The position numbers and the translations under genes are program-made. From Deltaproteobacteria bacterium (lineage in GTDB: Bacteria; Desulfobacterota; Syntrophia; Syntrophales; UBA2210): a stretch of 51,566 nt of DNA. Below the pieces are notes generated by a model, which was not told the DNA's origin, searched no databases, and was given only the letters and a program-made list of their open reading frames with translations. The stretch's first letter is position 1. Each line of letters begins with the position of its first letter. The stretch spans positions 1-51,566 of the forward strand of contig JAFGPZ010000297.1 in NCBI GenBank assembly GCA_016935935.1, written 5' to 3'. Positions 128 through 35,197 of this stretch are shown here, piece after piece.

Positions 128-802
128 CTACAACTTGGCCGCGTCATTCAGGAACATCTTTATGGTTTCTTTGCTGTATGGATGAACTATCATGCCTTCC
201 AAAAGGTGAGGAAGAACTGTAACAATATGAGATCCAGCTTCTAGCCATTCTATTATATTAATGATTTCACGTGTTGAACCAGTAATAATTTGAGATTTTA
301 AATTAAATTGATCTAGTATGTTGCGTAATTTATTAATTTCACCGCATACATTATACCCCATATTATTAACACGACCACCAAAGATCGACAGATATGAAGC
401 ACCAGCCAATGCCGCAAGCAAACACTGTTGTGCGCTCATCATTGCGGTAACGTTGATGCGCACATCGTATTCAGTCTCAAGTCGATGAACAACCTCCAGA
501 TTGTCCAACTCGCCGTCCGGACCATGAATGGTTATCTTTACAACAATGTTTTCAGCCCATTGCGCGAATTCTCTTGCCTGATCAAGCATGCCTTTGGGAT
601 CATTTTTGGTAACCTCCACAGATAAAGGGTAAGGCGCTATCATTTTGGCAATTTGTATGGAGCGTTGTCTGACACCTGCCATCCCTTCTGTAACCCCGTC
701 TTTGAAAAGAATTGTCGGATTCGTTGTCACGCCACGAATTATCCCCATTTTCATGAATCGCTCAACTTCACTGCTCTTACCGGTATCCAAAAAAATCGAC
801 AT
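128..802 (-). CDS. Transaldolase-family protein (TalC/fructose-6-phosphate aldolase type)
   Basis: A 224-residue protein of the small transaldolase (TalC/FSA) class, a TIM barrel that transfers or cleaves three-carbon dihydroxyacetone units through a Schiff-base lysine. Visible marks are TTNPT at residues 26-30 and the probable catalytic Lys89 in IVVKI; length fits the 210-225 residue small class. The family contains both true transaldolases and fructose-6-phosphate aldolases, and sequence reading alone does not separate them. It is the last gene of a heptose-nucleotide gene set, so a role in making or balancing sedoheptulose 7-phosphate, the heptose precursor, is a reasonable inference. The ATG is preceded by a G-rich ribosome site that contains a run of ten G. 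Confidence 0.85.
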   Translation of the reverse strand: MSIFLDTGKSSEVERFMKMGIIRGVTTNPTILFKDGVTEGMAGVRQRSIQIAKMIAPYPLSVEVTKNDPKGMLDQAREFAQWAENIVVKITIHGPDGELDNLEVVHRLETEYDVRINVTAMMSAQQCLLAALAGASYLSIFGGRVNNMGYNVCGEINKLRNILDQFNLKSQIITGSTREIINIIEWLEAGSHIVTVLPHLLEGMIVHPYSKETIKMFLNDAAKL

Positions 803-1947: not shown

Positions 1948-2703
1948 TCACTCTTCACTCATCTGTTTCGCAAGCGCATCGGCCTCTTTGTACGCATCTG
2001 GAGTATCAATGCCGATTATCGGTTCAGCCATTTTGACAGCGTATATCATTTCCCCAGCGCGGAGCATTATCGGAAAGATATCACTGCTGAAATCACAATA
2101 CACATCTTTCGGAATGTAATCTAAAACCTCCGGCTGCATATAAAAAAAACCGGCATTGACATAATGGCTTGTAACATCTTCTGCTCGTGGTTTTTCCGCA
2201 AGCCTCATTATACGCCCATCATCTGCCATCTCCACCATACCGCTTTGTGTCACATCATTCCGCCAATGTACCGCCATCGCTACAGCAGCATGATTCTCTT
2301 CGCATACGCGCTTTAGTTCCACTAAATTCCACCGGCTGAAATTATCGGCATAAATCATATAAAAAGGCCCATCAAAAAAACCTGCTACCTTTTTCACGGC
2401 ACCGGCAGTGCCGAGCAACTCTTCTTCGTATGAGTATTGAACCATCATCCCATACTGAGCCCCGTCACCCACGAAATCCATTACCATATCCGGCAGATAA
2501 TGAAGGTTCATCACGCATTCACGCACACCACAAGATCGCAGCCACGTAAGCGTCCAGTCTAAAAGAGGTCTCCCAGCCAACGGCATCAGACATTTGGGAA
2601 GGCTATCCGTCAAGGGACGTAGCCGTGTTCCCATGCCTGCCGCTAATATCATGGCCTTTGCTTCACCGTGAGGAGTGAGGAGTGAAGAGGAAGGAGTTGT
2701 CAT
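1948..2703 (-). CDS. hddC: Sugar-1-phosphate nucleotidyltransferase, likely heptose-1-phosphate guanylyltransferase
   Basis: A 251-residue NTP_transferase-fold protein. The activation loop GMGTRLRP is at residues 23-30 and the PK of the sugar-nucleotide signature at 36-37. HddC makes GDP-D-glycero-alpha-D-manno-heptose; mannose-1-phosphate guanylyltransferases look similar, so the substrate is taken from its neighbours (hddA, gmhA, gmhB). The first 17 residues (MTTPSSSLLTPHGEAK onward) are not part of the fold and are encoded by a 7-bp repeat tract; the conserved core starts at Met18, so an ATG at 2652 is an alternative start. The ATG at 2703 overlaps the stop of the preceding gene (ATGA). 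Confidence 0.8.
   Translation of the reverse strand: MTTPSSSLLTPHGEAKAMILAAGMGTRLRPLTDSLPKCLMPLAGRPLLDWTLTWLRSCGVRECVMNLHYLPDMVMDFVGDGAQYGMMVQYSYEEELLGTAGAVKKVAGFFDGPFYMIYADNFSRWNLVELKRVCEENHAAVAMAVHWRNDVTQSGMVEMADDGRIMRLAEKPRAEDVTSHYVNAGFFYMQPEVLDYIPKDVYCDFSSDIFPIMLRAGEMIYAVKMAEPIIGIDTPDAYKEADALAKQMSEE
2668..2702. repeat. Heptamer repeat tract (GTGAGGA type) inside the hddC 5' end
   Basis: On the plus strand: GTGAGGA, GTGAGGA, GTGAAGA, GGAAGGA, GTTGTCA at 2668-2702. The tract is translated on the minus strand into the non-conserved N-terminus of the nucleotidyltransferase. Confidence 0.7.
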
Positions 2704-3038
2704 TTAGCTTTTCTGCTCCTGATAGAATTCATAAGACCACCAATAAGTCCAAATATCTTATCGACCTGCGAAATAATCGAGGCCTCGTCGGAAAGATATC
2801 CGAGTTCTTTTGCGATTATGATCTGCGTATCAAGTTCGCTTAATGAACCGCGATTTATCGAAAGAAATCTGATAAACTCATTATCACCTTTACGAGCCGC
2901 ACCCTCCGCAATGTTGCTCGGAACGGATATAGCAGCTCTGCGCATCTGACTGGTAAGTCCATACATCTCATTGGAAGGGAATCTCTCTGTCAAACGATAA
3001 ACTTCTTTTACGAGAACAATTGCTTCTTGCCAAACCAA
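2700..3038 (-). CDS. Four-helix-bundle protein (23S rRNA intervening-sequence protein family)
   Basis: A 112-residue all-helical protein of the family named after ORFs in 23S rRNA intervening sequences. Recognisable segments are VWQEAIVLVKEVYRLTERFP at the start, then LTSQMRRAAISVPSNIAEG and the FIRFLSINRGSLSELDTQ stretch. Its biochemical role is not known; the gene turns up as a passenger in many clusters. There is no ATG: the frame opens with TTG after a stop about 30 bases upstream, and homologues usually carry about 5-8 more residues before VWQ, so the 5' end may be slightly damaged. It separates the oxidoreductase gene from hddC and overlaps hddC by 4 bases. Confidence 0.8.
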   Translation of the reverse strand: MVWQEAIVLVKEVYRLTERFPSNEMYGLTSQMRRAAISVPSNIAEGAARKGDNEFIRFLSINRGSLSELDTQIIIAKELGYLSDEASIISQVDKIFGLIGGLMNSIRSRKAK

Positions 3039-11084: not shown

Positions 11085-12200
11085 CTAGTACTTGAGCTTG
11101 TAGCGCTCGTCCGCTAATTTACGGCTAAAGACATCGCGCGATAGCTCGAGTACGTAAGATGGGTTCAACATTCTCGCCATTACTTTCCCAATACTCTTAA
11201 ATCCCTTTTTATGCGTCAAAGCGGACTTTACCCCAGTCCAAAGAAAAAAAGTTAACGGATATATAAAAGGAAACGAATAAGAATCAATGGATATCACGCC
11301 GTCGTCTGTCCCAAACAGTTTATTCACTAAATAATCCAATCTGTCATTCGAGCAATTCAACGACTTCTTAAGGAGCTGTTGCGTGAGGTACAGTCCAAAC
11401 CCAATCTGTTTTCCAAGGCAAACAGAACGAGTGAAGTCAACAAAACTTCGAAGGTCTGGTTCTGAAGATTGCTCCACTGTATACAACGTTGTATAAAACA
11501 GTTCCAATCCATAGCTCCGATTCGGAAATATCGAATGCAGACAAACAATAAAGAGGTCGAGCCAGGGAGGTAAAACGCGTGCCGTTGTTTCGCTATCATC
11601 TACGATATTCACGAACGTCCGCAATGAGGTGAGACCAAGGAAGCAGCCTTTATCAAAGAATATCAAGTCATGCACAGAAATTTCTCGATATAAATCCAGA
11701 TCAAGGTAATCTGCTTTATCTCCGGCGTTTGGATCGCCCTCAGGCCGCTTGGGATCCCAGAAACTATTGATTCCTCCAAAGGTGGTATTATATTTTCTGT
11801 ATCCCAACCTTTCAAAAAGGTCTATTACAATCTCGTATTGCTCATCTCCACCTTGGATAATCATATCAATGTCGTTAGGGTTCTCTGGATAATAGCGAAG
11901 TGTTTTAAGAAAGATACACTCGATTCTTGTGTCTTCAAGATTATGGGTCAGCCTCCGAATATCCGTATGAAGATTGTTATGACGCTTCAGGCTGCGCTCA
12001 TACTCGCAGGAAAGTTTATCCAGGCATCCCTGCTCAAATAGAGTTCTCAGATACAAAAAGGGAACACGATTTTGGAAAGCATAATTATAAATATCCAAGG
12101 ACTCGAGACACTCCTTTTGATGGGATACAATACCAGGGATACCAATCATTTTGATAAGGTCCATGGCGGGTGCAGGCGCCGCATTAAATGAATTTAACAT
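11085..12200 (-). CDS. Nucleotidyltransferase-fold protein (NTP_transf_5-like)
   Basis: A 371-residue cytoplasmic protein resembling the uncharacterised NTP_transf_5 nucleotidyltransferase group. The segment CIFLKTLRYYPENPNDIDMII (around residues 114-134) has the Lys/Arg-Tyr spacing and the Asp-x-Asp metal-binding pair expected of the fold; a further acidic DLDLYREISVHD stretch follows near 187-198. The donor and acceptor are unknown. Its ATG overlaps the stop of the thymidylate-kinase-like gene by one base (TAATG), so the two are probably made together and may act together. Confidence in the fold is moderate; no function is claimed. Confidence 0.65.
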   Translation of the reverse strand: MLNSFNAAPAPAMDLIKMIGIPGIVSHQKECLESLDIYNYAFQNRVPFLYLRTLFEQGCLDKLSCEYERSLKRHNNLHTDIRRLTHNLEDTRIECIFLKTLRYYPENPNDIDMIIQGGDEQYEIVIDLFERLGYRKYNTTFGGINSFWDPKRPEGDPNAGDKADYLDLDLYREISVHDLIFFDKGCFLGLTSLRTFVNIVDDSETTARVLPPWLDLFIVCLHSIFPNRSYGLELFYTTLYTVEQSSEPDLRSFVDFTRSVCLGKQIGFGLYLTQQLLKKSLNCSNDRLDYLVNKLFGTDDGVISIDSYSFPFIYPLTFFLWTGVKSALTHKKGFKSIGKVMARMLNPSYVLELSRDVFSRKLADERYKLKY

Positions 12201-12901
12201 TATGGATTATCCTCTCCCTTCACACGACCAAGTATGCTCAATACGGCCTGACGAATCTGTTCTATTTGATCTTCCCTTCTTGCTGTACCATCAATAGTTT
12301 TACCTGAATAGCTTTCAATCATTTGCTTATACAGATATCTCCTCTCCGACAGGTATTCTACCGCTGGCGTATCTGTTTTTCGTGCAAAGGCAATTTCTTC
12401 CTCAACATCAATCAGAAATAGAAGCGTAGGCTTGGGGAAAAGCCTTAGAAAAAATTCCAAGCTTTTTAGAGAAGGCTTTCCTGATATATTTGTATTATGA
12501 CCTAAATTGATCGCCGTATCGTAGACATAGCGGTCTACAATTATACTGTGTCCCAGGAACAACGGTATCGAAACTTTGAAAAACATTTGAATTGAAAAAT
12601 CTAGCCAATAGATAGCTGCGTACAATTTTGTCAGTATTCCATATCGATTGCTAAGTTCCTTTTTTTTGTTGCGATATTCTTCGTACCCCTCAAATGGCGA
12701 CTGATTAGATAAAAATACCCGCGAAATAATAAACTTCACAGGCCTTAACAGGTATGATTGCACCCCCCCGTAGACATAGTAAAAATCTAGGTTTTCTTTT
12801 CTAAATAAATCTGTCAAGCGGTTGCCAAGCGTCGTCTTGCCTGAGCCATCAATGCCAATCAGGCAAACAAAAATAGCCTTCTGCATAACCTTTCCTTTCA
12901 T
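12200..12901 (-). CDS. Thymidylate-kinase-like P-loop kinase
   Basis: A 233-residue P-loop kinase of the thymidylate kinase-like fold. Walker A is GIDGSGKTT at about 17-25; the DRY motif is in IIVDRYVYDTA near 121-131; a lid-like basic segment ERRYLYKQMIESY follows near 186-198. The gene lacks the usual TMP-binding pattern that I would expect from housekeeping Tmk, and it sits among glycosyltransferases, so phosphorylation of a sugar or lipid intermediate is a possible role. It overlaps the upstream glycosyltransferase gene by 4 bases and the downstream nucleotidyltransferase-like gene by 1 base. Confidence 0.75.
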   Translation of the reverse strand: MKGKVMQKAIFVCLIGIDGSGKTTLGNRLTDLFRKENLDFYYVYGGVQSYLLRPVKFIISRVFLSNQSPFEGYEEYRNKKKELSNRYGILTKLYAAIYWLDFSIQMFFKVSIPLFLGHSIIVDRYVYDTAINLGHNTNISGKPSLKSLEFFLRLFPKPTLLFLIDVEEEIAFARKTDTPAVEYLSERRYLYKQMIESYSGKTIDGTARREDQIEQIRQAVLSILGRVKGEDNP

Positions 12902-20662: not shown

Positions 20663-21601
20663 TTAAGGAAAACGTGTCCCTAACACGAAAACTTGAGAGA
20701 TATCTTTCTCACAAGGAACCTCGGTCAATTTTACAATTGGATAGATAGGATGTTTCGGTTCATGTTTAAGAATAGGGCCGACTTTGCCTTTTGAGAGCTT
20801 TCTTGAAAGTAATCTCTCAGCTTTTGATGACCACTCATTAATGTAATATGTTTTCCCAATCGACTTATTTTGAGGGCGAGAGAGTAAGCATCTTTTTCTC
20901 TTTATTTCAGAGAGAATCTCTATTAGCAAATCTACCCCCAATACGCTTAATTTCATATCTATAGAAAATGGCGAGTCTGTTACTTCAATATTTGGACGTG
21001 CTTGTGCCAAAATGGGTCCCATATCTAATTTTTCATCAATTTGATGAATCGTTACACCGATATTTTGTATTTCATCATTAATAATTGCCCATTCAGTACA
21101 ATATGAACCTCTATAAAATGGTGAAAGTCCCCAATGTAAATTAATGCAGGCTTTAAACGGAGCGGATATAATATCGGATGGGAGAAGACTGGTTCCAAAT
21201 ACAATGATTATATCAACTTTCCGTTTTGCTATATCATAACTATTAAAACTTCTTTCTTTTACAAAAGAAAATGACAAAAATGAGTCTTGAACATTTTTCC
21301 ATGATTCCGGAAATAATAATCCAAATATTTTTCTTTTTTCTTTTGCCCTTACTCTCCATGTAGTGCAGACAGGCTCAATCCTTTCCTTTACCTCCATAAA
21401 AATCCTATCTATTAGGATCTTCGGTCTAAGAATTAACCCTTTTTTATCCCAAATTTTACCTTTTAATGTCCGTTTTCTCCTCAAATACGCTTCTGGGGTA
21501 TTAGTTTCGAAATACACATGGTCCAAACCAATTTCTCGATGGATGCGATTTACAGCTTGTAATTGCCAAGGAGACCAACGAGTTAGCATAATAATCCGCA
21601 T
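20663..21601 (-). CDS. Formyltransferase-family protein (sugar N-formyltransferase-like)
   Basis: A 312-residue protein with the formyl_trans_N fold, which moves a formyl group from 10-formyltetrahydrofolate to an amine. Seen: KACINLHWGLSPFYRG near 148-163 with the Asn/His of the active site, TEWAIIN, and the matching acidic residue in IDEKLDMGPILAQ near 184-196. It is not the housekeeping methionyl-tRNA enzyme: the N-terminus (MRIIMLTRWSPWQLQAVNRI) and spacing differ and the gene lies in a glycan cluster. Sugar N-formyltransferases (WbkC, VioF, FdtF) act on amino-deoxysugars. AT-rich like its two neighbours. Confidence 0.8.
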   Translation of the reverse strand: MRIIMLTRWSPWQLQAVNRIHREIGLDHVYFETNTPEAYLRRKRTLKGKIWDKKGLILRPKILIDRIFMEVKERIEPVCTTWRVRAKEKRKIFGLLFPESWKNVQDSFLSFSFVKERSFNSYDIAKRKVDIIIVFGTSLLPSDIISAPFKACINLHWGLSPFYRGSYCTEWAIINDEIQNIGVTIHQIDEKLDMGPILAQARPNIEVTDSPFSIDMKLSVLGVDLLIEILSEIKRKRCLLSRPQNKSIGKTYYINEWSSKAERLLSRKLSKGKVGPILKHEPKHPIYPIVKLTEVPCEKDISQVFVLGTRFP

Positions 21602-24588: not shown

Positions 24589-26298
24589 TTACTCGATGGG
24601 TTCCAGCCCTGACTCTGCGGGGTAAATGAACTCGTGTGCATCTAAAATACCGCGGCAGATCACATCCAGACCGATGCTCTTACCGGGTTTAATTTCTGAG
24701 ATATTTGATATGCCTAGGTTAAATGACGGCGGGTTTTCAATTTTCACCATGAAGTTCAATGGAATCATCCGCCTGAAGAAAAAATGGTACGCATACATTC
24801 GTGCCCGATACATTTCCATTTTGCTCATTCGCCCATTTAACGGCAACCGATTCAGAATTGAAATATACTCTTCTTCTGACGAAGCATCCATGGTGAACCC
24901 CTTCCCCCGAATCCACGCCTCACCTGCTACGATGATAGGTATGCCGCGACTTGACATCTCCATTGCTGCTTTTGTCCCGTATATCAGTACCGCATTGCAT
25001 TGCTGCATCGTGGTGTAAGTGCTGATTAAACTTTCAGGAGGAATGATATATATGTTGTCAGGCAGTTTTGGATATCTCTTCCGAATTTCGTCAACCAGAG
25101 GCTGGCGTGATTTATGGAATTTCACAACTTCGCCTGGATGCGCCCGAATGAGTAATTGAAGATCAGGTCGATCAGCAAAATAATCTATGGTCGCGAACAC
25201 CCAACTCATCATGTCAGGAAACGCCCTGGCTTGGAAATGCAGCTGGGCATCCCAAACTACATTTGAAAGCAATCCGATAGTTGGTTTCGAAAAATCAATG
25301 CCTATTTCCTTTTCAATTTTAGATATTTCTTCCTCCGGATGCACATTATATCTTACCCAGTCACGATCACCTCTTTCCCGGCTTATCATGTAATCCATCA
25401 CCTGTGTTTCTAAATCGGAAGTCCATTTGACATTTTCCCAGTTGGATACAGGTTCTTCCAGCAAAGCATGATGGTAGGAATCACCATGAGCGAACATGAA
25501 ACACTTGTTCCTGTAGGCCGTCCACCAGGTGACCACACGGACGGATGCCCGTCGCGCAGCCCCCACTATTAAGCCTTGTGGAACGTATATGCCGTGATGA
25601 AGCACCACGCTTTGGAAGTCGTGAGATTCGAAAAGCGCTTCGCATGCAAAAACGGTTAACAACGCGGCTTTGAAATAGCGGCGAAGAACCTGCTCTCCAT
25701 ATTCTTCATTAGCCAGATCACCTCGTGCGAAGAACCGCAGTGCCCCGGCCAGAGCATGCTCACCAACGGATACTCCGTTGCTTTCGTAAGAAACAAGATC
25801 ATCTGTTGTAAGGCCAGAAGACAGCTCATCTGCAATACGTTGTTTTTCTGTATTCACGATCTCACTGTATTTATGAACCGTGATTCCCATATCCTGATAC
25901 ATGGTTTCGGCCGCATCTATGCAATCGCTGCATAGTCCGCTTTTTAGAGGTCCGCCAGCAGCAAAGTCCGGCATGTTTTTGATGGCAGGATATTCTGGTT
26001 TCAAGCAGGCGGGTAAAAAACTGTCGCATAACAACACATGTACCTCGGTTCCCCTCAGTGTAAGTGCCGCAGCCAGAGAGCTGTCAACCACGTTCAGATG
26101 AGCAATCCCTCCGATGCTTGTAGCTATTAGAACCTTGGCGCCTCCCTTTGCCGAATCAAGAGCAGTTTGCCATCGCTTCTGATCTTCATTTATAATTTTT
26201 CGCCAGTCAGGGTATTGAGGATGCCGCCATCCTATCGCCTTTTTAATAGATCTTTTTATCACCTTGGGAACATACTTCTTTAATGTTTTCATTTGCAT
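24589..26298 (-). CDS. Capsule-biosynthesis-like protein, possible GT-B glycosyltransferase
   Basis: A 569-residue protein resembling capsule polysaccharide synthesis proteins. N-terminal basic region (KKYVPKVIKRSIKKA) may sit at the membrane. A Rossmann-like start is KVLIATSIGGIAHLNVVDSS near 54-73; two Cys pairs (LCSDCIDAAE) near 135-145; the C-terminal half shows LLIRAHPGEVVKF near 387-399 and AVLIYGTKAAMEMSSRGIPIIVAG near 441-464, a pattern shared with capsule-type transferases of the KpsC/KpsS-like superfamily. It lies directly downstream of the transketolase and cytidylyltransferase genes, so transfer of the CMP-activated sugar is a plausible but unproven role. Confidence 0.6.
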   Translation of the reverse strand: MQMKTLKKYVPKVIKRSIKKAIGWRHPQYPDWRKIINEDQKRWQTALDSAKGGAKVLIATSIGGIAHLNVVDSSLAAALTLRGTEVHVLLCDSFLPACLKPEYPAIKNMPDFAAGGPLKSGLCSDCIDAAETMYQDMGITVHKYSEIVNTEKQRIADELSSGLTTDDLVSYESNGVSVGEHALAGALRFFARGDLANEEYGEQVLRRYFKAALLTVFACEALFESHDFQSVVLHHGIYVPQGLIVGAARRASVRVVTWWTAYRNKCFMFAHGDSYHHALLEEPVSNWENVKWTSDLETQVMDYMISRERGDRDWVRYNVHPEEEISKIEKEIGIDFSKPTIGLLSNVVWDAQLHFQARAFPDMMSWVFATIDYFADRPDLQLLIRAHPGEVVKFHKSRQPLVDEIRKRYPKLPDNIYIIPPESLISTYTTMQQCNAVLIYGTKAAMEMSSRGIPIIVAGEAWIRGKGFTMDASSEEEYISILNRLPLNGRMSKMEMYRARMYAYHFFFRRMIPLNFMVKIENPPSFNLGISNISEIKPGKSIGLDVICRGILDAHEFIYPAESGLEPIE

Positions 26299-26333: not shown

Positions 26334-28265
26334 TTAGACTTCAATCTCTGTATCGTCGATTATGCGTTTTACAAGTGAAGCGCCATCCAGGCGGTGGTGC
26401 TCCAGAACCTCTACAGGAGCGCCCCAGGCGGGATAATCTTCAATAGCAAACCTTTTGAACCTCATTTTCTCCCTAATCAAATGCCCTGAAGAAAGAAGAT
26501 TCAAGATCGTATCGCCTAACCCCCCAACCAGAAAATGATCTTCAAGCACGTAAATAGCCGAGCATGATTCAACCGTCTCCGCGATCCATTCCATGTCAAC
26601 GCGGTTAAGCCAGGGCATATTGATAACCTTTAGGCCGAAACCCTGATCAGCCAGCAGCTCACTTGCCAATAATGCTTCATTAAGCATAACAGGCCCGTAG
26701 GCAAACATTACAGCGTCTGACCCTCCAACCAATTCAGTCCCTTTCCCCGGTTCAAACCTATAGTCCGAAGGTAGTTCGATGATTCTGGGTGACGGACCAA
26801 TGTTAAGACGCAAAACACAATTTTCTCTCGCTTCTTCAACACAATATTTCACCGCCGTCCTTGTTTCCACAGCATTGCAAGGTTGAATGATCAAAATGTT
26901 GGGCAACGATCCCAGCAGTGCAATATCCCGGAGGCTCTGATGGGACAAGCCCGGACCAGCCGGAATGAGTCCGGCATAATGGCAGGCATAGATAATCTTA
27001 GTATCTTCACCTGAGTTGGTGTATATCTGCTCATTAGCCCTGGCCGCGAGAAATGCCCCAAAAGTATTCACCACAGGCAAAAGGCCCTGAAGAGCGAGTC
27101 CGCCGGCCATCGACACCATGTCCTGCTCTGCAATCCCATTCTCAACGAATCGCTCGGGATATTTTTTCTCAAACGAACGAATACGGCAATCGGCGGCGAG
27201 ATCACAATCCAAAACAATCAGGTCCTTGCGCCCTTCAGCCAACTCGACCAAAGCCTGACCAAAAGCATCGGCCACATATTCTCGGGAAACGTTCCTCGGT
27301 TTCTTGACTTCTGGCGGAACAGTTTCCAGAGTCAGGAGGGGTATCTTAATTTCGTCGAGCTGAATATTTATACGTTGGATGATTTCATCGTGCGCAGCCA
27401 TATATAACTTGTCATCCGGCGCTCCGGAATGCCACTGGTATATTCCACCCCCGGCCCTCAGCGCCTCCGGATGCTCCATAAAAGAAACTCCCCGTCCTTT
27501 TATCGTATCGGCAATAAGGACTTTCGGTTTGTCAACTATTCCGTTGAATTCAACAAACACCTTTTCTATTTCTTTGAAGTCGTGTCCATTGCATCGCGCC
27601 ACATGCCAGCCGAAAGCACGAAGTTTGCTCTCCAAGTCTCCCAGGCAGGTGATCTCCTCGACGGGCTTATCTGACTGAACCTTGTTGTGATCGATTATGA
27701 CGGTCAGGTTGTTTATTTTTTGGTGTGAAGCTGTTTGCAACGCCTCGTATATTTGCCCCTCCTGGAACTCACCGTCGCCAGTTAATACGAAGACGCGCCC
27801 TTTCCGGCCGAGTAACTTCTTGGCCAATGCCATGCCTTTCGCCTTGGAAATACCCATGCCAAGGGATCCCGAATTAGCCTCGATTCCCGGAATACTGATA
27901 TGTGGATGCCCATCAAGTCCCCCTAGCCGGCGAAGTTTCAAAAACAATTCCTTGGACAATACGTTTAATGAAAATAATACCGAATATAATCCCGGTACGT
28001 CGTGCCCCTTTGACGAGAAATAGATGTCCCGGTCCGGGTTGTCAAACCCGGCCGACACAGTATTCATATCCTCGTAATACAGATGCATAACAATATCCAT
28101 AGCGCTGAAACTGGACCCAAGGTGGCCGGAGCCGGCCCGTTTCACAGACGCAAGGACATTGGCTCTACACATATCGGCAAGTAGCGCTAGTTTATCATAT
28201 TTATGAATCGAAGATGCACGAACACGCTGAAACTCTTCCAAAGGAATAAGTTTTATTTCAATCAT
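26334..28265 (-). CDS. Transketolase (single chain, both halves)
   Basis: A 643-residue thiamine-diphosphate enzyme moving two-carbon ketol units. GSGHLGSSFSAMDI at 45-58, HPHISIPGIEANSGSLGMG near 120-138, the ThDP/metal motif GDGEFQEGQ at 163-171 with IDHN at 191-194, then the pyrimidine-binding half with GIAEQDMVSMAGGLA near 379-393 and a C-terminal transketolase domain. It is organised like split N/C-subunit transketolases joined in one chain. Housekeeping supply of pentose or heptose phosphates is possible, but its place between the CMP-sugar gene and a capsule-type gene suggests a step in a branched or chain-extended sugar. Confidence 0.9.
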   Translation of the reverse strand: MIEIKLIPLEEFQRVRASSIHKYDKLALLADMCRANVLASVKRAGSGHLGSSFSAMDIVMHLYYEDMNTVSAGFDNPDRDIYFSSKGHDVPGLYSVLFSLNVLSKELFLKLRRLGGLDGHPHISIPGIEANSGSLGMGISKAKGMALAKKLLGRKGRVFVLTGDGEFQEGQIYEALQTASHQKINNLTVIIDHNKVQSDKPVEEITCLGDLESKLRAFGWHVARCNGHDFKEIEKVFVEFNGIVDKPKVLIADTIKGRGVSFMEHPEALRAGGGIYQWHSGAPDDKLYMAAHDEIIQRINIQLDEIKIPLLTLETVPPEVKKPRNVSREYVADAFGQALVELAEGRKDLIVLDCDLAADCRIRSFEKKYPERFVENGIAEQDMVSMAGGLALQGLLPVVNTFGAFLAARANEQIYTNSGEDTKIIYACHYAGLIPAGPGLSHQSLRDIALLGSLPNILIIQPCNAVETRTAVKYCVEEARENCVLRLNIGPSPRIIELPSDYRFEPGKGTELVGGSDAVMFAYGPVMLNEALLASELLADQGFGLKVINMPWLNRVDMEWIAETVESCSAIYVLEDHFLVGGLGDTILNLLSSGHLIREKMRFKRFAIEDYPAWGAPVEVLEHHRLDGASLVKRIIDDTEIEV

Positions 28266-28277
28266 TGTTTCACTCTT

Positions 28278-29039
28278 CTATCGGATAAAAGGAGAAATAG
28301 AAACAGGAGGTAACTTTGCTTGTTCACTATGAACCAGTTCTTCGGCAATCTGCCAGTCGCTTTGGTAATTTACATCAAACCCTTCGTAATCCTGAGTAAT
28401 GAAAGGCCTAACAGCATTCCCGGCAATCGTGCGCCCTTCATGAACCACTCTCGACCACGCAATCTCAAGACTGGCATTTTGCACAAACACTTCTGGTAAA
28501 GATTGATATTGACTGCTATGCCACGGTTGTTCAGGGGGACTTAAAGGTAGTAACGGAAACATGAGATTTCCCCTGAGAACCCACATTTTGCCCGGATGTT
28601 GTTTACATTTTTCCACAGCACGTAAAGAATCCACTCCTTCAGAAGCAAGAAATTCACGCCAGGCGCGTTGTATGGTCGCAGCAAGGCGAAAAGGGCTTGT
28701 GGGACGAAGAATGCTGAAGCAATCGTACATGCGGTCCTCTTTGCGCAGTCTTTTCAAAGAATGCTCAACCCATTCAATATCAGGCGACAGGTCACTGGCG
28801 AACTTTGGCGGCCGCAAAAATGGTACTTCAGCCCCGTAGTACTTTGCAATTTCGGCGTATTGCTCAGAGTCGGTTGAAACTATTACGGCATCGAAAATTT
28901 GACTCTGAATGGCGGCTGAAACAGTATATGCGATCAAGGGGTGACCGGCTAAAAGACGGATATTCTTGTCCGGCACACGCTTAGAACCCGCCCTTGCTGG
29001 TATCAAGGCAATGATGCTTGGACAAGCATTATCATCCAT
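28278..29039 (-). CDS. CMP-ulosonate cytidylyltransferase (NeuA/PseF-like)
   Basis: A 253-residue acylneuraminate cytidylyltransferase-family protein. The nucleotide loop ALIPARAGSKRVPDKNIRLL is at 11-30, VIVSTDSEQYAEIA near 51-64, and the LRPTSPFRLA motif near 107-116. Enzymes of this family activate nonulosonic acids, Kdn or related 2-keto-3-deoxy acids as CMP-sugars. Length is close to the 220-240 residue minimum of the family, with no phosphatase domain fused; that function sits in the separate KdsC-like gene at 31375. The exact sugar cannot be read. Confidence 0.85.
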   Translation of the reverse strand: MDDNACPSIIALIPARAGSKRVPDKNIRLLAGHPLIAYTVSAAIQSQIFDAVIVSTDSEQYAEIAKYYGAEVPFLRPPKFASDLSPDIEWVEHSLKRLRKEDRMYDCFSILRPTSPFRLAATIQRAWREFLASEGVDSLRAVEKCKQHPGKMWVLRGNLMFPLLPLSPPEQPWHSSQYQSLPEVFVQNASLEIAWSRVVHEGRTIAGNAVRPFITQDYEGFDVNYQSDWQIAEELVHSEQAKLPPVSISPFIR

Positions 29040-29041
29040 GT

Positions 29042-30514
29042 CTAAACCTTGCCAGGGTCAATGTTTATGTATATATTTTTTAGTTCAGAATACACATCCA
29101 AGGCTTCCGTCCCGGGCTCACGCCAACCGTTTCCAGATTGTTTCAAGCCGCCAAATGGCATGTGCGGTTCGCTCCCGTAAGTCCCAGCATTAACAACCGC
29201 CACCCCAGCCTGAACTTTTTGCGTAAACTCGGTTGCCCGATGAATGCTGCGGGTATGAATACAGGCGGTAAGACCGTACGGAGAATCATTGGCCATGTTT
29301 AAGGCATCTCCGAAATCTTTCGCACGATACAGGCAAGTAATAGGGCCAAACAGCTCCTCAGTAGAAATTTCGTCATGCGGGTCGACACCCTCGATTAATG
29401 TAGGGGCCATGTAAAAACCATTGTGATGTTCCGGATCGGTCAGTCTGTGCCCCCCGGTAAGAATCATGGCACCTTTTTGACGCACTCGGTTCACAGCGTC
29501 GAGCATATTGTTAAGCTGTCCTTCATTAATCACCGGCCCTAAGTCATCGGCATTGGTCGGACCCACTTTGAGCGCTTTGGTCCGTTCTACCAGAATGTCG
29601 CGGAACTGATCATAAACTGAATTAAAGACAAGTATTCTACTTCCCGAGGCGCAACGTTGTCCCGCATTGCTAAAAGCAGAAAGTAACACCCATTTTGCTG
29701 CGTTATCCAAATCAGCATCATCACAAACAATCAAGGGGTTCTTCCCGCCCAGCTCAAGAGAAACCTTTGCCAAGCGTTTACCTGCAATTGAGGCAATTTG
29801 CCGACCCACAGCCGTGGAGCCGGTAAAGCTGATTACACCCACATCCGGATGCTCAACCAACGGTGCACCGGTTTCCTCACCATATCCCTGGATGACGTTT
29901 AGCACGCCCGCCGGAAGCCCGGCTTCATGAGCAAGCTTACAAAAGATCCATGCTATCGCCGGAGTATCTTCGGCGGCCTTGAGGATGGCAGCATTACCAC
30001 AAACCAGCGCCGGGAATACTTTCCAAGCAACATTTGCGATAGGTGTGTTTGCCGCAATGATGAGACCTGCCACGCCCACTGGCTGTCTTATGGTCATGAC
30101 ATATTTGTTCATTGCCCCACTTGTGATTGTTCTTCCATACAACCTTTGCCCCTCACCAGCATAGAAGAAACCAAGTTCGATTGCTCCCCTGGTCTCGCCA
30201 TAAGCATCTTCGTAAGACTTACCGGTTTCTACAGCGACAATCTGCGCAATCTCTTGTTGGCGTTCTTGCATCCCAAGGGCTATTCTGTGTAAGAGCATCC
30301 CCCGCTGGACCGGAGGAGTGCCCCCCCAGGCAGGCTGAGCAAGAATTGCCGCTTGGATTGCCCTACGTATATCCTCGCTTCGTGACCGAGCCACCCTGCA
30401 CAATAACTTACCATCAGCAGGATTCAGTTTGTCGAATAATTCACCGGTATCTGCCTCCTGTTCCTGGCCATTTATCCAGTTTGGAATTTTTGCTGGGAAA
30501 AGGGTCTTCTCCAT
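29042..30514 (-). CDS. Aldehyde dehydrogenase family protein
   Basis: An NAD(P)-dependent aldehyde dehydrogenase of about 490 residues. The active-site Glu is in SLELGGKNP (residue 254) and the catalytic Cys in NAGQRCASG (residue 288); FTGSTAVG near 230-237 is the cofactor loop. I place the start at the ATG at 30514, which has AAAGGA nine bases upstream; the open frame runs on to 30589 but would overlap the SDR gene by 26 bases. Role: oxidises a sugar-derived or small aldehyde to an acid, or the reverse. Its presence between NeuA-like and SDR genes ties it to the acidic-sugar module. Confidence 0.9.
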   Translation of the reverse strand: MEKTLFPAKIPNWINGQEQEADTGELFDKLNPADGKLLCRVARSRSEDIRRAIQAAILAQPAWGGTPPVQRGMLLHRIALGMQERQQEIAQIVAVETGKSYEDAYGETRGAIELGFFYAGEGQRLYGRTITSGAMNKYVMTIRQPVGVAGLIIAANTPIANVAWKVFPALVCGNAAILKAAEDTPAIAWIFCKLAHEAGLPAGVLNVIQGYGEETGAPLVEHPDVGVISFTGSTAVGRQIASIAGKRLAKVSLELGGKNPLIVCDDADLDNAAKWVLLSAFSNAGQRCASGSRILVFNSVYDQFRDILVERTKALKVGPTNADDLGPVINEGQLNNMLDAVNRVRQKGAMILTGGHRLTDPEHHNGFYMAPTLIEGVDPHDEISTEELFGPITCLYRAKDFGDALNMANDSPYGLTACIHTRSIHRATEFTQKVQAGVAVVNAGTYGSEPHMPFGGLKQSGNGWREPGTEALDVYSELKNIYINIDPGKV

Positions 30515-30563
30515 TTTAATTATATCCTTTAAATCCGGTGAGCTACTGAAAGGCAAAATCTGC

Positions 30564-31391
30564 TCACCATGCTGTCCATCCACCATCAATGACCAAATTA
30601 GATCCTGTCATATAAGATGAAGCATTAGAAACCAGAAAGATAATTGCGCCGTTATATTCCTCTTCATTCGCCATACGGCCCAAAGGCACCCTGTCACAGT
30701 AGCCCTTTAAAAATTGTTCATCCTGGTTATTGAATACGCCTCCAAAAGTCAACGTATTAACTCTCACGTTCCTGCCAGCCCAATATGTTGCAAGGTAGCG
30801 AGTTAAGTTCAAAAGCGCAGACTTGGAGCTTGAATAAACTGCCGGTTTAAAAAATGGCGCGCCATCACGTGTACGGTATTCATATATCCGCTGATCGGGC
30901 GAAACAATGCCATAGGTCGAGCAAATATTGATAATCGAACCACGGCCAGCGGCAGCCATTTGCCCCCCTACCGCCTGACAGCACAGGAAGACGCCCTTGA
31001 CATTCACTCTCATTACCTCGTCCCAAGAGTTTTCCGGGTAATTCTCAAATGGCCCATTTTCCTCTGCGGGGGCATTGGGGGGCGAGTCAAGAGCGGCATT
31101 GTTAATCAGTGCATCCGGCACTCCCCATCTATCGATAACCCTTGCCAACCCGTTTTCCAATGAATCCCTATCCGTAATATCTGCTCGTAGAATGAGTAAA
31201 TTTTTATCAGCTTGCCGCTTGCCGAGTCTTTCAGTTATTGTTTGTTCATCTGCCTGAATATCAAAAATGGCAACTTTGGCCCCACGATCAGCCAGTGCAA
31301 AAGTAAACTGCCGGCCAAGCTGTCCGAGCCCACCGGTAACGATCACAACTTTATCACGCGCATTAAAAAGATTTTCAATCATGGGATTCAA
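30564..31391 (-). CDS. SDR-family oxidoreductase (PtmA-like)
   Basis: A 275-residue classical SDR. TGGLGQLGRQ at 19-28 binds the cofactor, NNAA at 97-100, the catalytic Ser near 158 and Tyr186-x3-Lys190 in YSSSK; the C-terminus ends in NLVIDGGWTAW, typical of the class. Similar SDRs accompany NeuB/NeuA-like genes in flagellin-modification and capsule loci (PtmA type). Expected to interconvert a hydroxyl and keto group of the aldose precursor or of the acid. It overlaps the upstream phosphatase gene by 17 bases. Confidence 0.87.
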   Translation of the reverse strand: MNPMIENLFNARDKVVIVTGGLGQLGRQFTFALADRGAKVAIFDIQADEQTITERLGKRQADKNLLILRADITDRDSLENGLARVIDRWGVPDALINNAALDSPPNAPAEENGPFENYPENSWDEVMRVNVKGVFLCCQAVGGQMAAAGRGSIINICSTYGIVSPDQRIYEYRTRDGAPFFKPAVYSSSKSALLNLTRYLATYWAGRNVRVNTLTFGGVFNNQDEQFLKGYCDRVPLGRMANEEEYNGAIIFLVSNASSYMTGSNLVIDGGWTAW

Positions 31392-31935
31392 TTACCTCTG
31401 CTTTTAATATGCGCTCAAACAGATCACAAATTTCACGCACAGCACCATGACCTCCTTGTACTCTCGTTTGATATCCGGCATAGGGAACAATATCTGGATG
31501 AGCATCTCGAACGACTATTGGTAAGCCGACACAATTGAGACAGAACAGATCGTTGATGTCATTTCCAACAAAAGCTACTTGTTCAAGAGAAAGCTTCATC
31601 TCCTGAACGATATTATTAAGAGTTTCCAGTTTGTCTTTACATCCTTGCTCACACCGAATTACTAATTTCCGGCAACGTTCAGACACAACCTGATTTGTTT
31701 CAGTTGAGATGACTACAGTGTTAACCCCAAACCGCTCTAATTTGCGCAAACCAATACCGTCACCGCGAAAACACCGTACCGCCTCTGATCCATTTTCAAA
31801 CACATAAACCGTATTATCAGTAAACACCCCATCGAAATCAAAAGCGACTAAACGGATCTTTCGTATTCTTTTCTCGAGCAGTGATTTGTTGAGTAGGTTA
31901 TTCAATGCCCTCAAGAGGTTGCTACCTCCGACCAA
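31375..31935 (-). CDS. KdsC-like HAD phosphatase
   Basis: A 186-residue HAD protein of the KdsC type. AFDFDGVFTDN at 31-41 holds nucleophile Asp33 and Asp35; VISTETNQ near 77-84 is motif II; KLETLNN and VAFVGNDINDL near 123-133 form motifs III/IV. The cap-less tetrameric KdsC class dephosphorylates Kdo-8-phosphate or, next to NeuB/NeuA-like genes, Kdn-9-phosphate. The frame opens with TTG at 31935; a TTG at 31914 overlapping the upstream stop (TTGA) with GGAGG ten bases before it may be the true start. Placed between the synthase and SDR genes of the acid-sugar module. Confidence 0.86.
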   Translation of the reverse strand: MVGGSNLLRALNNLLNKSLLEKRIRKIRLVAFDFDGVFTDNTVYVFENGSEAVRCFRGDGIGLRKLERFGVNTVVISTETNQVVSERCRKLVIRCEQGCKDKLETLNNIVQEMKLSLEQVAFVGNDINDLFCLNCVGLPIVVRDAHPDIVPYAGYQTRVQGGHGAVREICDLFERILKAEVIESHD

Positions 31936-32993
31936 TCCTGCGCGCCGTTTAAAATTTCAAACATGATATCCTCATCTGCTTTCAATGCCTGAAGGGTAAC
32001 GCGACCGATTACTTTGTTCAGTTCATAGGGCGGCATACCGCCTCCCGGTGACTTTATGGCAATATCCTCCAGCCGTATGCTGTGACCGGCGGGCAAATCC
32101 CGTGCTGCAACCAATTTTTTTCCCATCTTGGCTATATGGCTGACTTCGCTTTCATAAATCTTTTTGACTCCATCCCCCATTGCCACACGCACACGGCGCA
32201 AATCGCGAATCATCTTCCTGAGTCCTATTGGCTCCAGGGAAAAGGCATGGTCTGTCCCTTTCCATGTGTGATTCAAAGTAAAGTGCTTTTCAATCACCCT
32301 TGCACCTAACATATAAGCTGCCACCGGCATAGCGATACCGTTATCATGAGATGATAATCCGATAATAATGTTCGGAAAGCGATGGCGATACGTAGTTATA
32401 ACTCCCAAATTAAGCTCTTCAAAAGCGGCCGGATATCCTGAAGTGCACTGCAAGACACACAGTTGCTGGTTGATCGGCATAATAGCATCATATGCCCTTT
32501 GAACGTCCTCCATTGTTCCTCCACCAGTACTGACTATCATAGGTTTTTTAAATTTTGCAATACAGGTAAGAAGCGGAATATTCTTGAGATCGCCCGAAGC
32601 TATCTTAAATGCTGGAACATCAAGTTTCGCCAAAAAATCGGCGCTGGAAAAGTCAAATGCTGTTGCAAACATTGTGATACCTATCTCACGGGCGTGTTGC
32701 TTTAGTTCTTGATATTCATCCCAGCCGAACTCAAGAGCCTCTCGGTGTTCACCATAGGTTGCTCCGTAGCTGTTTTCGTGGTCATAGGGTTTGTCATATA
32801 GATCTTTAACATATAATGAATGGTTGTCTCGCTTCTGCAGTTTTACAGCGTCAGCCCCGCAGTCTTTCGCAACGGAAAACATCTTCTTGGCTGTTTCTAA
32901 GTTTCCTTGGTGGTTGTGACCTATTTCGGCGATGACATAGCATTCAGTATTATCATTCACGGAACTTCCATCAATAATTATCTCTCTATCCAT
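31911..32993 (-). CDS. NeuB-family ulosonic acid synthase with SAF domain
   Basis: A 360-residue PEP-dependent synthase: it condenses phosphoenolpyruvate with an aldose (or aldose phosphate) to give a 2-keto-3-deoxy acid. EIGHNHQGNLETAKKM opens the TIM barrel; DAVKLQKRDN, FKIASGDLKNIPL, VSTGGGT, the GLSSHDNG and KHFTLNH motifs follow; the C-terminal SAF/antifreeze-like domain covers the last 70 residues (KKLVAARDLPAGHSIRLED). I start at the ATG at 32993, which has GGGGGGA six bases upstream; the frame continues to 33008. The aldose is not certain; with a separate KdsC-like phosphatase a phosphorylated sugar is likely. Confidence 0.9.
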   Translation of the reverse strand: MDREIIIDGSSVNDNTECYVIAEIGHNHQGNLETAKKMFSVAKDCGADAVKLQKRDNHSLYVKDLYDKPYDHENSYGATYGEHREALEFGWDEYQELKQHAREIGITMFATAFDFSSADFLAKLDVPAFKIASGDLKNIPLLTCIAKFKKPMIVSTGGGTMEDVQRAYDAIMPINQQLCVLQCTSGYPAAFEELNLGVITTYRHRFPNIIIGLSSHDNGIAMPVAAYMLGARVIEKHFTLNHTWKGTDHAFSLEPIGLRKMIRDLRRVRVAMGDGVKKIYESEVSHIAKMGKKLVAARDLPAGHSIRLEDIAIKSPGGGMPPYELNKVIGRVTLQALKADEDIMFEILNGAQDWSEVATS

Positions 32994-33049
32994 AAAACAT
33001 CCCCCCATGATTAAAGCTGATTATACGTTCCATTCCGGATAAAATGCTT

Positions 33050-35197
33050 TTAAGTCATGTTATGCAATTTCTCAAACCCCTCAACAATGCCTTCCACATG
33101 CTCTCCCTCCAGATACTTAAGGACTTTATCAACTATAGAGCTTGCGGATTCTTGATAAACCTGGCTTATCGAGCCTGAAATATGTGAAGTCAAAAAAACA
33201 TTAGGAAGTTTTCGTAAGGTGTTGTCTCGATCTAATGGCTCTCTGTCAAATACATCTAAACATGCGAATATGTCTTTCTTTTTTAACCGATCTATCAGGG
33301 CCTCAGTATCAATTATTTCTCCTCGAGCGGTGTTAACGAGCACAGATCCAGGCTTGAGGGCATTTATAGCGGATCTATCAAAACTCTTTAGGGTCCTGTC
33401 TGATAACCCACGATGAATTGAAACCACGTCGCATTGCAATAACTGGATCAAATCAGCCTTTGTCACCTCTAGTCTTTTCGCTTCATACGCCGACATATAT
33501 TCCGAATGCACCATAATGTCACAATTGAAAGGTTTAAGTAAGCTTATAAGTTTTTTAGATATTTCTCCATATCCAAGTAAACCGATCTGAGCGCGATGCA
33601 ATAAGTTGCTGCCGCCAAAACCGTCCGTGACGCCCATTACCGGGATTCCCTGGCGATTGATTCTCCTCCACAATGGCAAAAGCACGGGTTTCAACATTTT
33701 GACAAATGGAAGAACTTTGAACCCACTAAGCTTACGAAGGGTTTCTTTTTTAAGCCTCTTATCATTATTAATTCCCCAATTCCCCGTCCGCATGACTTCA
33801 TGTGAGCGGGATGCGTTTCTCATTCCGATCAGCATCATCATAAGCGTAAACTCGGCCACGGCATCAGCAGCGACATCCGCTGTGTTAATTATTTTAATAT
33901 TTTTTTGCATAAGCTTTTCAGGGAAGGCCGCCTTTACCGTGCCCCCTAAGAAACCAACGACTTTTAGTGATGGGAAATCATCTATCAAATCAGATTTACC
34001 CAGCACGCCACCCCGACCTTCAATGATCGCAACAATATTTTTCTTATCATTCTCGGTTAAGGAGGAAAGATTGTAATCGAAAACAAGCTGGTATTTTTCT
34101 CCGATTTTAGGCAAGGCGACCTTAATCATATCCGGATTTAGCACTAGAATTGATTTTGCATCATTACTCGGTTTAGAAATAATATTAAATACTTGTTTCT
34201 CCTCATGAAGCCCTATCTCTCCTTGAACGCTGGTCCAATCAATAACCCCGTGATACCCCCCTTCCATAAGTTGAGCCAGATGTAAAGCAATGCCTCCATG
34301 ATGAATATCGTTGATCGGGATCTGCCCGTTTAAGATACTCTCCGCGAAAGCCTTGTGCTCATCGACAAAACCTCTGTTTTCATTAGTGTCCTCGAAAATC
34401 TTTTTCTCGACATCATTGCCTCCGACATACTTAACATATTGCAATTCTTCGCACACAATTGAAATAGCCGCTCCATTTAAGACATATGACTCGCGTCTTT
34501 TTCCAGCAGTGTTGCAGGAAGCTATTATGGCATGGGCGCCATTGTTCCATTTCATAATAGCAGAAAAATTCTGCGGAATATCTCCTGAAATTATATTGAA
34601 GCTACTGTAGAGTTCCTCTGGTGGACCATCAGCCAGATAGCAGAGTACATCAATGCTGTGGATACTGTTGGCAGTTAACATCGAGGTCCCTCCAAATGGT
34701 ATATCGCGTCCGAGGGAGGGGGTGTTATAAATGGCTTCCATCGTGCTGATCGAACTGAACCTGGCCATCTCTGACTTTGCTAATCTTATATTTTTCTGAA
34801 ATCTCCGATTAAAACCTACGACTGCCGTTAAATTTTTTTCTCGTGCGATGCGGGATACTCGCGATATTACCTTTGGATCCAGTCCGGGCGGCTTTTCGAT
34901 AAATACATGTTTATTGTTTTCCACCGCCATCAGGGCGCATTTCTGATGCATGAGCGCCGTGCCAAAAACATACACCGCGTCTATATTTTCATCTTTGAAG
35001 ATTTTATCTGCTTCATGAATATACGAGTTAAACCCGAACTTTTCCGCTGACCGTTTTGCCGCGGCCACATTCAAATCGCACAGAACACATTTTTCATAAT
35101 AGCCTTTTTTTGACAGATCATTAATAATAGGCAAGTGGACTCTGTTTGACATGATCCCAGCGCCTATGACGGCAATGTTAATTTTTTTACTGCCCAT
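33050..35197 (-). CDS. Fused Gfo/Idh/MocA oxidoreductase and D-2-hydroxyacid dehydrogenase
   Basis: A 715-residue single chain with two complete dehydrogenases. Residues 1-335 form a Gfo/Idh/MocA unit: AVIGAGIMSNRVHLP near 9-23, IEKPP near 93-97, and TANSIHSIDVL near 174-184. Residues about 345-710 form a D-2-hydroxyacid dehydrogenase: the Rossmann motif LLGYGEIS near 542-549, then catalytic Arg in TARGEI, Glu in DREPL and His in TSHISGS near the end. The order of both motif sets is normal, so both halves may be active. Start ATG. First gene of the acid-sugar module. The substrate is unknown; a hydroxy/keto acid intermediate fits the second half. I know of no named enzyme with this architecture. 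Confidence 0.85.
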   Translation of the reverse strand: MGSKKINIAVIGAGIMSNRVHLPIINDLSKKGYYEKCVLCDLNVAAAKRSAEKFGFNSYIHEADKIFKDENIDAVYVFGTALMHQKCALMAVENNKHVFIEKPPGLDPKVISRVSRIAREKNLTAVVGFNRRFQKNIRLAKSEMARFSSISTMEAIYNTPSLGRDIPFGGTSMLTANSIHSIDVLCYLADGPPEELYSSFNIISGDIPQNFSAIMKWNNGAHAIIASCNTAGKRRESYVLNGAAISIVCEELQYVKYVGGNDVEKKIFEDTNENRGFVDEHKAFAESILNGQIPINDIHHGGIALHLAQLMEGGYHGVIDWTSVQGEIGLHEEKQVFNIISKPSNDAKSILVLNPDMIKVALPKIGEKYQLVFDYNLSSLTENDKKNIVAIIEGRGGVLGKSDLIDDFPSLKVVGFLGGTVKAAFPEKLMQKNIKIINTADVAADAVAEFTLMMMLIGMRNASRSHEVMRTGNWGINNDKRLKKETLRKLSGFKVLPFVKMLKPVLLPLWRRINRQGIPVMGVTDGFGGSNLLHRAQIGLLGYGEISKKLISLLKPFNCDIMVHSEYMSAYEAKRLEVTKADLIQLLQCDVVSIHRGLSDRTLKSFDRSAINALKPGSVLVNTARGEIIDTEALIDRLKKKDIFACLDVFDREPLDRDNTLRKLPNVFLTSHISGSISQVYQESASSIVDKVLKYLEGEHVEGIVEGFEKLHNMT

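Follow-up and report, generated by a model that had tools for sequence, protein, structure and literature searches.

The window analysed here (51,566 nucleotides, from a Deltaproteobacteria bacterium) is one 51.6-kb contig crowded with polysaccharide genes on the minus strand. These include glycosyltransferases, an O-antigen-ligase-like gene, ABC-2 transporter and ATPase genes, methyltransferases, Wzz/tyrosine-kinase-like, export and porin genes and an initiating sugar transferase. Inside this locus, at 26334-35197 on the minus strand, we found seven contiguous open reading frames (ORFs), all of them with the Pfam domains that an initial annotation had named. We propose, tentatively, that six of them make an unusual cytidine monophosphate (CMP)-activated ulosonic acid whose chain would be shortened after it has been built. 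The seven genes, together with the gene that follows them, are:

33050-35197, minus strand: fusion of Gfo/Idh/MocA and D-2-hydroxyacid dehydrogenase domains (Pfam 3.9e-18 and 2.7e-39); accessory
31911-33008, minus strand: NeuB-type phosphoenolpyruvate (PEP)-condensing synthase with an SAF domain (Pfam NeuB 3.6e-80)
31375-31935, minus strand: KdsC-type HAD phosphatase (Pfam HAD hydrolase; NCBIfam KdsC model 2.1e-39; DFDG at residue 33)
30564-31391, minus strand: short-chain dehydrogenase (SDR) (Pfam; YSSSK at 186)
29042-30589, minus strand: aldehyde dehydrogenase (ALDH) (Pfam Aldedh 4.1e-155; GQRC at 310)
28278-29039, minus strand: NeuA/PseF-type cytidylyltransferase (Pfam CTP_transf_3 2.2e-22; ARAGSKR at 15)
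26334-28265, minus strand: single-chain transketolase (Pfam, all three transketolase domains)
24589-26298, minus strand: probable GT-B glycosyltransferase, directly after the transketolase (homologues in cassette loci; low-confidence model)

From NeuB to the transketolase, neighbouring genes overlap or are separated by gaps of 2-12 bp. The fused oxidoreductase lies 41 bp upstream of NeuB, and the probable glycosyltransferase 35 bp downstream of the transketolase. Starts were taken from the longest ORF, which may inflate the overlaps; at the KdsC-SDR junction a plausible ATG of the SDR overlaps the end of KdsC.

Genome contigs were scanned with the transketolase as query, and the best 80 of 144 confirmed loci were taken as the basis of all 80-locus counts given below. 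The locus stretches extended up to 10 kb per side (many were shorter) and were searched with the window proteins as tblastn queries, using fixed cutoffs for the partner counts (at least 50% identity in the case of NeuB). We found that NeuB-KdsC-SDR-ALDH-NeuA-transketolase is a recurring cassette, complete or partial, in Deltaproteobacteria, Chloroflexi, Methylomirabilis, Gemmatimonadota, a planctomycete, a Pedosphaera and two methanogens; in the methanogen locus L023 it is split into two divergent parts. Near the transketolase, NeuB was present in 35 loci, KdsC in 23, SDR in 37, ALDH in 37 and NeuA in 38, with all six genes together in 10/80. Identities to the window proteins were 55-78% for NeuB and mostly 59-79% for ALDH. 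Because the same set is found in such distant taxa, it is not a chance assembly, and the gene order, whose conservation in other genomes the initial annotation had left to be searched for, does recur.

The fused oxidoreductase, which had been counted in the set, did not behave in this way. Searched by tblastn at 1e-10, the 80 loci contained no match to it; comparison with the ORFs of the loci returned three weak matches (20-31% identity; L036, L019 and L065), the one in L036 (25%) being a Gfo/Idh/MocA-type gene directly upstream of NeuB. As it has no strong match in the 80 loci, we ruled it out as a member of the conserved set and regard it as accessory. Judged by its relatives, the fusion is a genuine protein architecture: both domains also occur together in 26 other proteins (627-748 aa), which align with at least 89% of the query at 33-45% identity.

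Genes missing from a cassette were often found elsewhere in the same genome. Ten Chloroflexi cassettes have neither KdsC nor SDR, and all ten genomes carry both at another site, as one SDR of cassette type (46-48%) and one KdsC domain (36-39%), about 2 kb or less apart in nine genomes; the tenth has them on separate contigs. Longer stretches were fetched for six of the ten, and in these a SAF-less NeuB adjoins the SDR/KdsC pair. In 5/6 the KdsC domain is fused to NeuA in a single gene; crude gene calling gave no such ORF in the sixth. In L114, L115, L116, L117 and L118 (Anaerolineales-type Chloroflexi) the NeuA-KdsC fusion lies between the SDR and the SAF-less NeuB, with one extra gene within this arrangement in L116. 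Among the delta-type cassette genomes tested for KdsC (G013-G016), 3/4 have a 34-38% copy elsewhere.

Some cassette loci hold additional genes. In L001, L010 and L069 an enolase-superfamily (MR/MLE) protein and a PanE-type reductase were found beside a NeuA; in L069 the reductase is cut by the locus end and no ALDH occurs in the stretch covered. Mandelate-racemase/enolase-superfamily and PanE-type enzymes act on alpha-hydroxy or alpha-keto acids, and their presence would be apt if the sugar gained a new alpha-hydroxy carboxylate.

The cassette was then compared with known systems. The CMP-Kdn (ketodeoxynononic acid) and CMP-sialic acid pathways likewise consist of a PEP-condensing synthase, a KdsC-type phosphatase and a cytidylyltransferase, but the cassette adds SDR, ALDH and transketolase, and its NeuB lacks the arginine at position 314 discussed below. 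The window NeuB scored 307.1 bits with the N-acetylneuraminate synthase model (TIGR03569, cutoff 399.65), and the window KdsC 93.7 bits with the Kdn 9-phosphate phosphatase model (NF058599, cutoff 180); the latter protein did exceed the cutoff of the KdsC subfamily model TIGR01670 (115.9 versus 106.95 bits). Legionaminic and pseudaminic acid pathways share with the cassette a NeuB/PseI-like synthase and a PseF-like cytidylyltransferase, and the window SDR is somewhat PtmA-like (111.8 bits, cutoff 350). However, no dehydratase, aminotransferase, acetyltransferase or uridine diphosphate (UDP)-sugar hydrolase was found among the cassette genes when Pfam and NCBIfam were run on the contiguous genes, in agreement with the initial annotation, which had seen no LegB/PseB dehydratase, aminotransferase or UDP-hydrolase in the set. 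Scores for the pseudaminic models were also below cutoff (synthase 247.2 versus 340.25 for PseI; cytidylyltransferase 141.8 versus 205.7 for PseF), and two epimerase-family genes elsewhere in the window reached 119.8 and 123.2 bits against a LegB cutoff of 475. The nearest NCBIfam models of the ALDH are 2-oxoglutarate semialdehyde dehydrogenases. We found no paper describing this gene set in the open-access literature. Given these sub-cutoff scores and the lack of literature, we regard the cassette, on sequence grounds, as a previously undescribed version of a CMP-ulosonic-acid pathway, and the earlier suggestion of a route unlike the Kdn, sialic, legionaminic and pseudaminic sets is supported.

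Residues of the synthase give some indication of its substrate. The window NeuB has E25, K53, K129, H215, H236 and D247, which we take to be the functional residues of Neisseria NeuB, and this places it in the NeuB superfamily. Arg314 of the Neisseria SAF domain, which presumably contacts the N-acetyl group, corresponds to Ser in the window protein. Across 44 sequences, this position is Ser, Thr or Cys in 33/33 SAF-bearing cassette NeuBs and Arg in two paralogues, while nine have no SAF domain. One locus (L024) contains three NeuB genes, of the cassette type (Ser314), the Arg314 type and the SAF-less type. As the phosphatase is of the KdsC type, the substrate of NeuB should be an aldose phosphate, and a nitrogen-free one is suggested by the replacement of Arg314 and by the absence of a nitrogen-introducing gene from the cassette. 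The predicted substrate is an aldose phosphate without an N-acetyl group, for which mannose 6-phosphate, leading to Kdn, would be the simplest fit.

The transketolase was surveyed in 77 sequences, i.e. the window protein and those of 76 of the 80 loci (E. coli numbering). It has the three domains of the superfamily and retains its thiamine-binding and catalytic His/Glu residues (H26, H66, H100, E411 and H473), and on these grounds belongs to it. Canonical transketolase (EC 2.2.1.1) shares all of these features; the cassette protein differs in the phosphate ligands and in Asp469. S385 is replaced by D, D469 by P, R520 by I and H461 by Y or F in 77/77 sequences. R358 is also replaced in 77/77 (by Lys in two), this site being less certain as its column falls in a gap for the 13 realigned proteins. 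We take R358, S385 and R520 to be sugar-phosphate binding positions. The cassette transketolase thus does not have the canonical ligand set (R358, S385, H461 and R520), and its scores with the matching NCBIfam transketolase models are all sub-cutoff (best 405.2 versus 488). By contrast, the canonical enzymes of genomes that also hold the cassette type keep R358, S385, H461, D469 and R520 in 9/9 genomes chosen, and E. coli, human and split transketolases likewise keep their sugar-phosphate ligands. The presence of a canonical enzyme in these 9/9 genomes ruled out the idea that the cassette protein is simply the ordinary transketolase of its host. In G032 and G033 (Bacteroidales) additional transketolases of the split type were seen, and in G001 and G034 the cassette protein was the sole transketolase at E 1e-15.

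There is a close precedent in engineered enzymes. H461 is associated with phosphate binding (PMC3657141). An R358I/H461S/R520Q variant of E. coli transketolase gained 55.3% activity on 5-keto-D-gluconate, giving tartaric semialdehyde, whose oxidation to tartaric acid by succinate or tartaric semialdehyde dehydrogenase was proposed as the next step (PMC12016104). All three of these positions are also altered in the natural cassette transketolase. This route (PMC12016104) resembles the one proposed below in its penultimate ketone, its removal of two carbons by transketolase and its conversion of a semialdehyde to an acid; it differs in that an engineered enzyme acts on a six-carbon aldonic acid, whereas the cassette has a natural subfamily beside a CMP-ulosonic-acid pathway. 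The replaced ligands suggest that the cassette transketolase has lost the usual means of gripping a phosphate. Its proposed role is to remove the terminal two carbons.

Co-occurrence of the genes was examined in two samples. Among 149 genomes from the class of G025 (the genome of L058), the transketolase was found in 7, the SDR in 47 and a class III aminotransferase in 52 (49 at 57% identity or more). Both SDR and aminotransferase were present in 7/7 transketolase genomes (hypergeometric probability of transketolase falling within SDR genomes 2e-4, kinship ignored). Among 298 genomes from the class of G001 (the genome of L013), the cassette ALDH was found in 6 and the transketolase (at least 60% identity) in 13, and 6/6 ALDH genomes had the transketolase (2e-9, kinship ignored), each of the six pairs sharing one contig within about 7 kb. 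An SDR of cassette type occurred in 74/81 transketolase genomes (12/12, 12/12 and 44/51, plus six loci with the gene in place). Gene presence looks nested, with SDR first, then transketolase, then ALDH, as expected if the enzymes act in that order.

A second gene set with the transketolase was found in 8 loci (Bacteroidales, other Bacteroidetes, Ignavibacteria and Kapabacteria). It comprises a cytidylyltransferase-family gene (7/8), a class III aminotransferase, KdsC (5/8), a NeuB without SAF domain and often a glycosyltransferase, and its SDR is 42-45% identical to that of the window. Genomes of Ignavibacteria and relatives in which the transketolase stands alone have an aminotransferase-SDR set elsewhere in 10/10 cases; two of these ten sets run off their contigs, and the aminotransferase of L161 is divided over two ORFs. 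No locus contained both ALDH and class III aminotransferase (37 and 8 of 80, respectively). A set of glycosyltransferase, cytidylyltransferase, class III aminotransferase, SDR, KdsC and SAF-less NeuB was observed in L044, L062, L068, L075 and L160-L169 (Ignavibacteria, Bacteroidales). From these 8 loci and 10 genomes it seemed that the aminotransferase always requires the transketolase; this was dropped, as 52/149 genomes have the aminotransferase and 7 the transketolase. The aminotransferase tracks the SDR and not the transketolase, which implies another fate there for the ketone made by the SDR; in genomes that have no transketolase this fate is perhaps amination.

From the gene set, its conservation, the residues and the co-occurrence observed above, we infer the following substrates, products and order of the SDR, transketolase and ALDH steps. 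NeuB would join PEP to an N-acetyl-free aldose phosphate (in the simplest case mannose 6-phosphate, giving Kdn 9-phosphate), and KdsC would take the phosphate off the product. The SDR would then oxidise the penultimate carbon of the tail to leave a free ketose end, HOCH2-CO-CHOH-, from which the transketolase would remove the terminal two carbons. The aldehyde left behind would be converted by the ALDH to a second carboxylate, and NeuA would form the CMP-sugar from the shortened dicarboxylic acid. By our own reasoning from nomenclature, 8-keto-Kdn should be D-threo at C7-C6, counted from the tail, as transketolase donors need to be. Starting from Kdn, loss of C8-C9 and oxidation of C7 would yield 3-deoxy-L-arabino-hept-2-ulosaric acid (C7H10O8, 222.04 Da, calculated by hand). 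We give a probability of roughly 45% to this reading, in which the surface polysaccharide of the surrounding locus would receive a CMP-activated ulosonic (ulosaric) acid, dicarboxylic and with a shortened chain, as the product of the six genes at 26334-33008.

Several observations weigh against it. The loss of phosphate ligands names neither the substrate nor the direction of ketol transfer. Wild-type E. coli transketolase also uses 5-ketogluconate and the triple mutant gains only 55.3% (PMC12016104), a modest effect which means that ligand loss is not required for chemistry of this type. In 29/80 loci the transketolase had no other cassette gene above the cutoffs (several of these are contigs of a few kb), and no KdsC was found anywhere in the genome of locus L032 (G013). 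The nesting combines separate samples, each of related genomes. Of the transketolase genomes, which are drafts, 7/81 had no SDR of cassette type; 40 SDR genomes of the 149-genome sample had no transketolase, and there the class III aminotransferase is found with the SDR whether or not the transketolase is present. The ALDH is also not constant. L002, L017, L034 and L042 have the remaining cassette genes without it (best ALDH in the genome 34-37% identical), L007, on a partial contig, resembles these loci (best 40%), and the ALDHs of L036 and L070 are only 44 and 42% identical.

The initial annotation had suggested a different acidic sugar, perhaps chain-extended or branched. The unusual ulosonic acid stands, while extension and branching became less likely, because the phosphate ligands of the transketolase are gone and, in the 298-genome sample, the cassette ALDH occurs only alongside this enzyme (6/6). 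In a chain extension, the SDR or another enzyme would make a terminal aldehyde to which the transketolase adds a two-carbon ketol. Transketolase is reversible, a non-phosphorylated acceptor would suit the lost ligands equally, and four loci hold the transketolase without ALDH. A Thermotoga transketolase is reported to make 7-keto-octuronic acid. H461, D469 and R520 mutants of the E. coli enzyme perform better with non-phosphorylated aldehyde acceptors (PMC3657141). Against this, the ALDH and the transketolase would compete for one aldehyde, yet in the 298 genomes the cassette ALDH was not seen without the transketolase, and the extended product bears a ketone that offers the ALDH nothing to oxidise; we regard extension as unlikely. 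If instead the hydroxyacetyl group were placed on the ketone made by the SDR, a two-carbon-branched ulosonic acid would result. The usual presence of the SDR in transketolase genomes agrees with this, and thiamine enzymes of the YerE type branch keto-sugars; but aldehyde acceptors are the rule for transketolases, and the ALDH would be left without a role, making a branched product distinctly improbable. On balance, removal of two carbons followed by oxidation fits the transketolase and ALDH evidence better than addition.

Other roles for the same genes were also weighed. The transketolase might supply the aldose phosphate (of erythrose, arabinose or another sugar) for NeuB, with the ALDH acting elsewhere: NeuB plus KdsC does imply such a substrate, and an aldolase/transaldolase-type gene is present in the same window (128-802). 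Nevertheless, with the sugar-phosphate ligands replaced in all 77 sequences, a canonical enzyme available in all nine genomes chosen and the dependence of ALDH on the transketolase left unexplained, precursor supply appears quite unlikely. In a variant of the trimming reaction, the ALDH (elsewhere the class III aminotransferase) would dispose of glycolaldehyde, and the sugar would keep its aldehyde or become an alcohol. This could account both for the ALDH going with the transketolase in the 298-genome sample and for the mutual exclusion of ALDH and aminotransferase by locus; however, the sugar-acid-type accessory enzymes in three loci indicate a carboxylate on the sugar, and the aminotransferase is found without the transketolase too, so that we consider disposal improbable. 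Lastly, since CMP-Kdn needs no more than NeuB, KdsC and NeuA, an ordinary Kdn or sialic-type pathway might merely lie beside unrelated redox and transketolase genes. The tight spacing of the six genes, their recurrence across phyla and the location of missing partners elsewhere in the genome make such a coincidence very improbable.

The product of the gene that directly follows the transketolase (24589-26298) is a possible candidate for the user of the predicted CMP-sugar. Homologues with 47-52% identity were found in 6 of the 80 cassette loci, one of them with a weak Capsule_synth match. The model of the 569-aa protein (built from 6 sequences; mean predicted local distance difference test score, pLDDT, 65.7) gave structural matches of the GT-B type with low TM-scores; those ranked 8, 9 and 19 were to KpsC, a 3-deoxy-D-manno-octulosonic acid (Kdo) transferase.

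Elsewhere in the window, a second unusual sugar set lies at the opposite end of the contig (128-7200, minus strand). It contains the fructose-6-phosphate aldolase/transaldolase-type gene at 128-802, a weak SIS-domain match (1342-1938), a nucleotidyltransferase, a Gfo/Idh/MocA oxidoreductase, an SDR, an epimerase and a GHMP kinase whose nearest model is the heptose-7-phosphate kinase HddA (171.8 bits, cutoff 600). From its gene content, this set looks like one for an aldolase-built, heptose-like nucleotide sugar. A formyltransferase-domain gene (20663-21601, minus strand), with methionyl-tRNA and sugar formyltransferases as its nearest models, suggests an N-formylated amino sugar. The polysaccharide locus also includes a 23S rRNA-intervening-sequence protein (PF05635, 1e-35; 2700-3038, minus strand) and, at 11085-12901 on the minus strand, an adjoining pair with weak matches to a nucleotidyltransferase-like protein (PF14907) and a thymidylate-kinase-like protein.

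The proposed product would be a seven-carbon ulosaric acid like Dha (3-deoxy-D-lyxo-hept-2-ulosaric acid) of plant rhamnogalacturonan II, and the two would be stereoisomers if the cassette product comes from Kdn. The biosynthetic enzyme and nucleotide form of Dha in plants are listed as unidentified in a 2025 review (PMC12168206). Plants are not known to use a route of the cassette type to Dha. If our reading is true, the cassette would provide the first candidate genes for the biosynthesis of Dha-type ulosaric acids.

With rather less assurance than for the product itself, we suggest that the cassette belongs to a natural, widely transferred and modular form of tail editing of CMP-ulosonic acids in bacteria and methanogens. 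A dedicated transketolase would shorten a non-phosphorylated keto-ulosonic acid, and the new end would then be oxidised, or possibly aminated in the Bacteroidota/Ignavibacteria relatives. To our knowledge, the known bacterial ulosonic acids vary by decoration of a chain that is fixed at PEP condensation; the chain-trimming mechanism would therefore be new, if confirmed, and shortening after condensation would constitute a new kind of step in nucleotide-sugar biosynthesis. It would also predict dicarboxylic sugars of a kind that could escape routine sialic-acid assays. Finally, the cassette appears to offer a natural transketolase subfamily for non-phosphorylated substrates, which engineers pursue by mutation.

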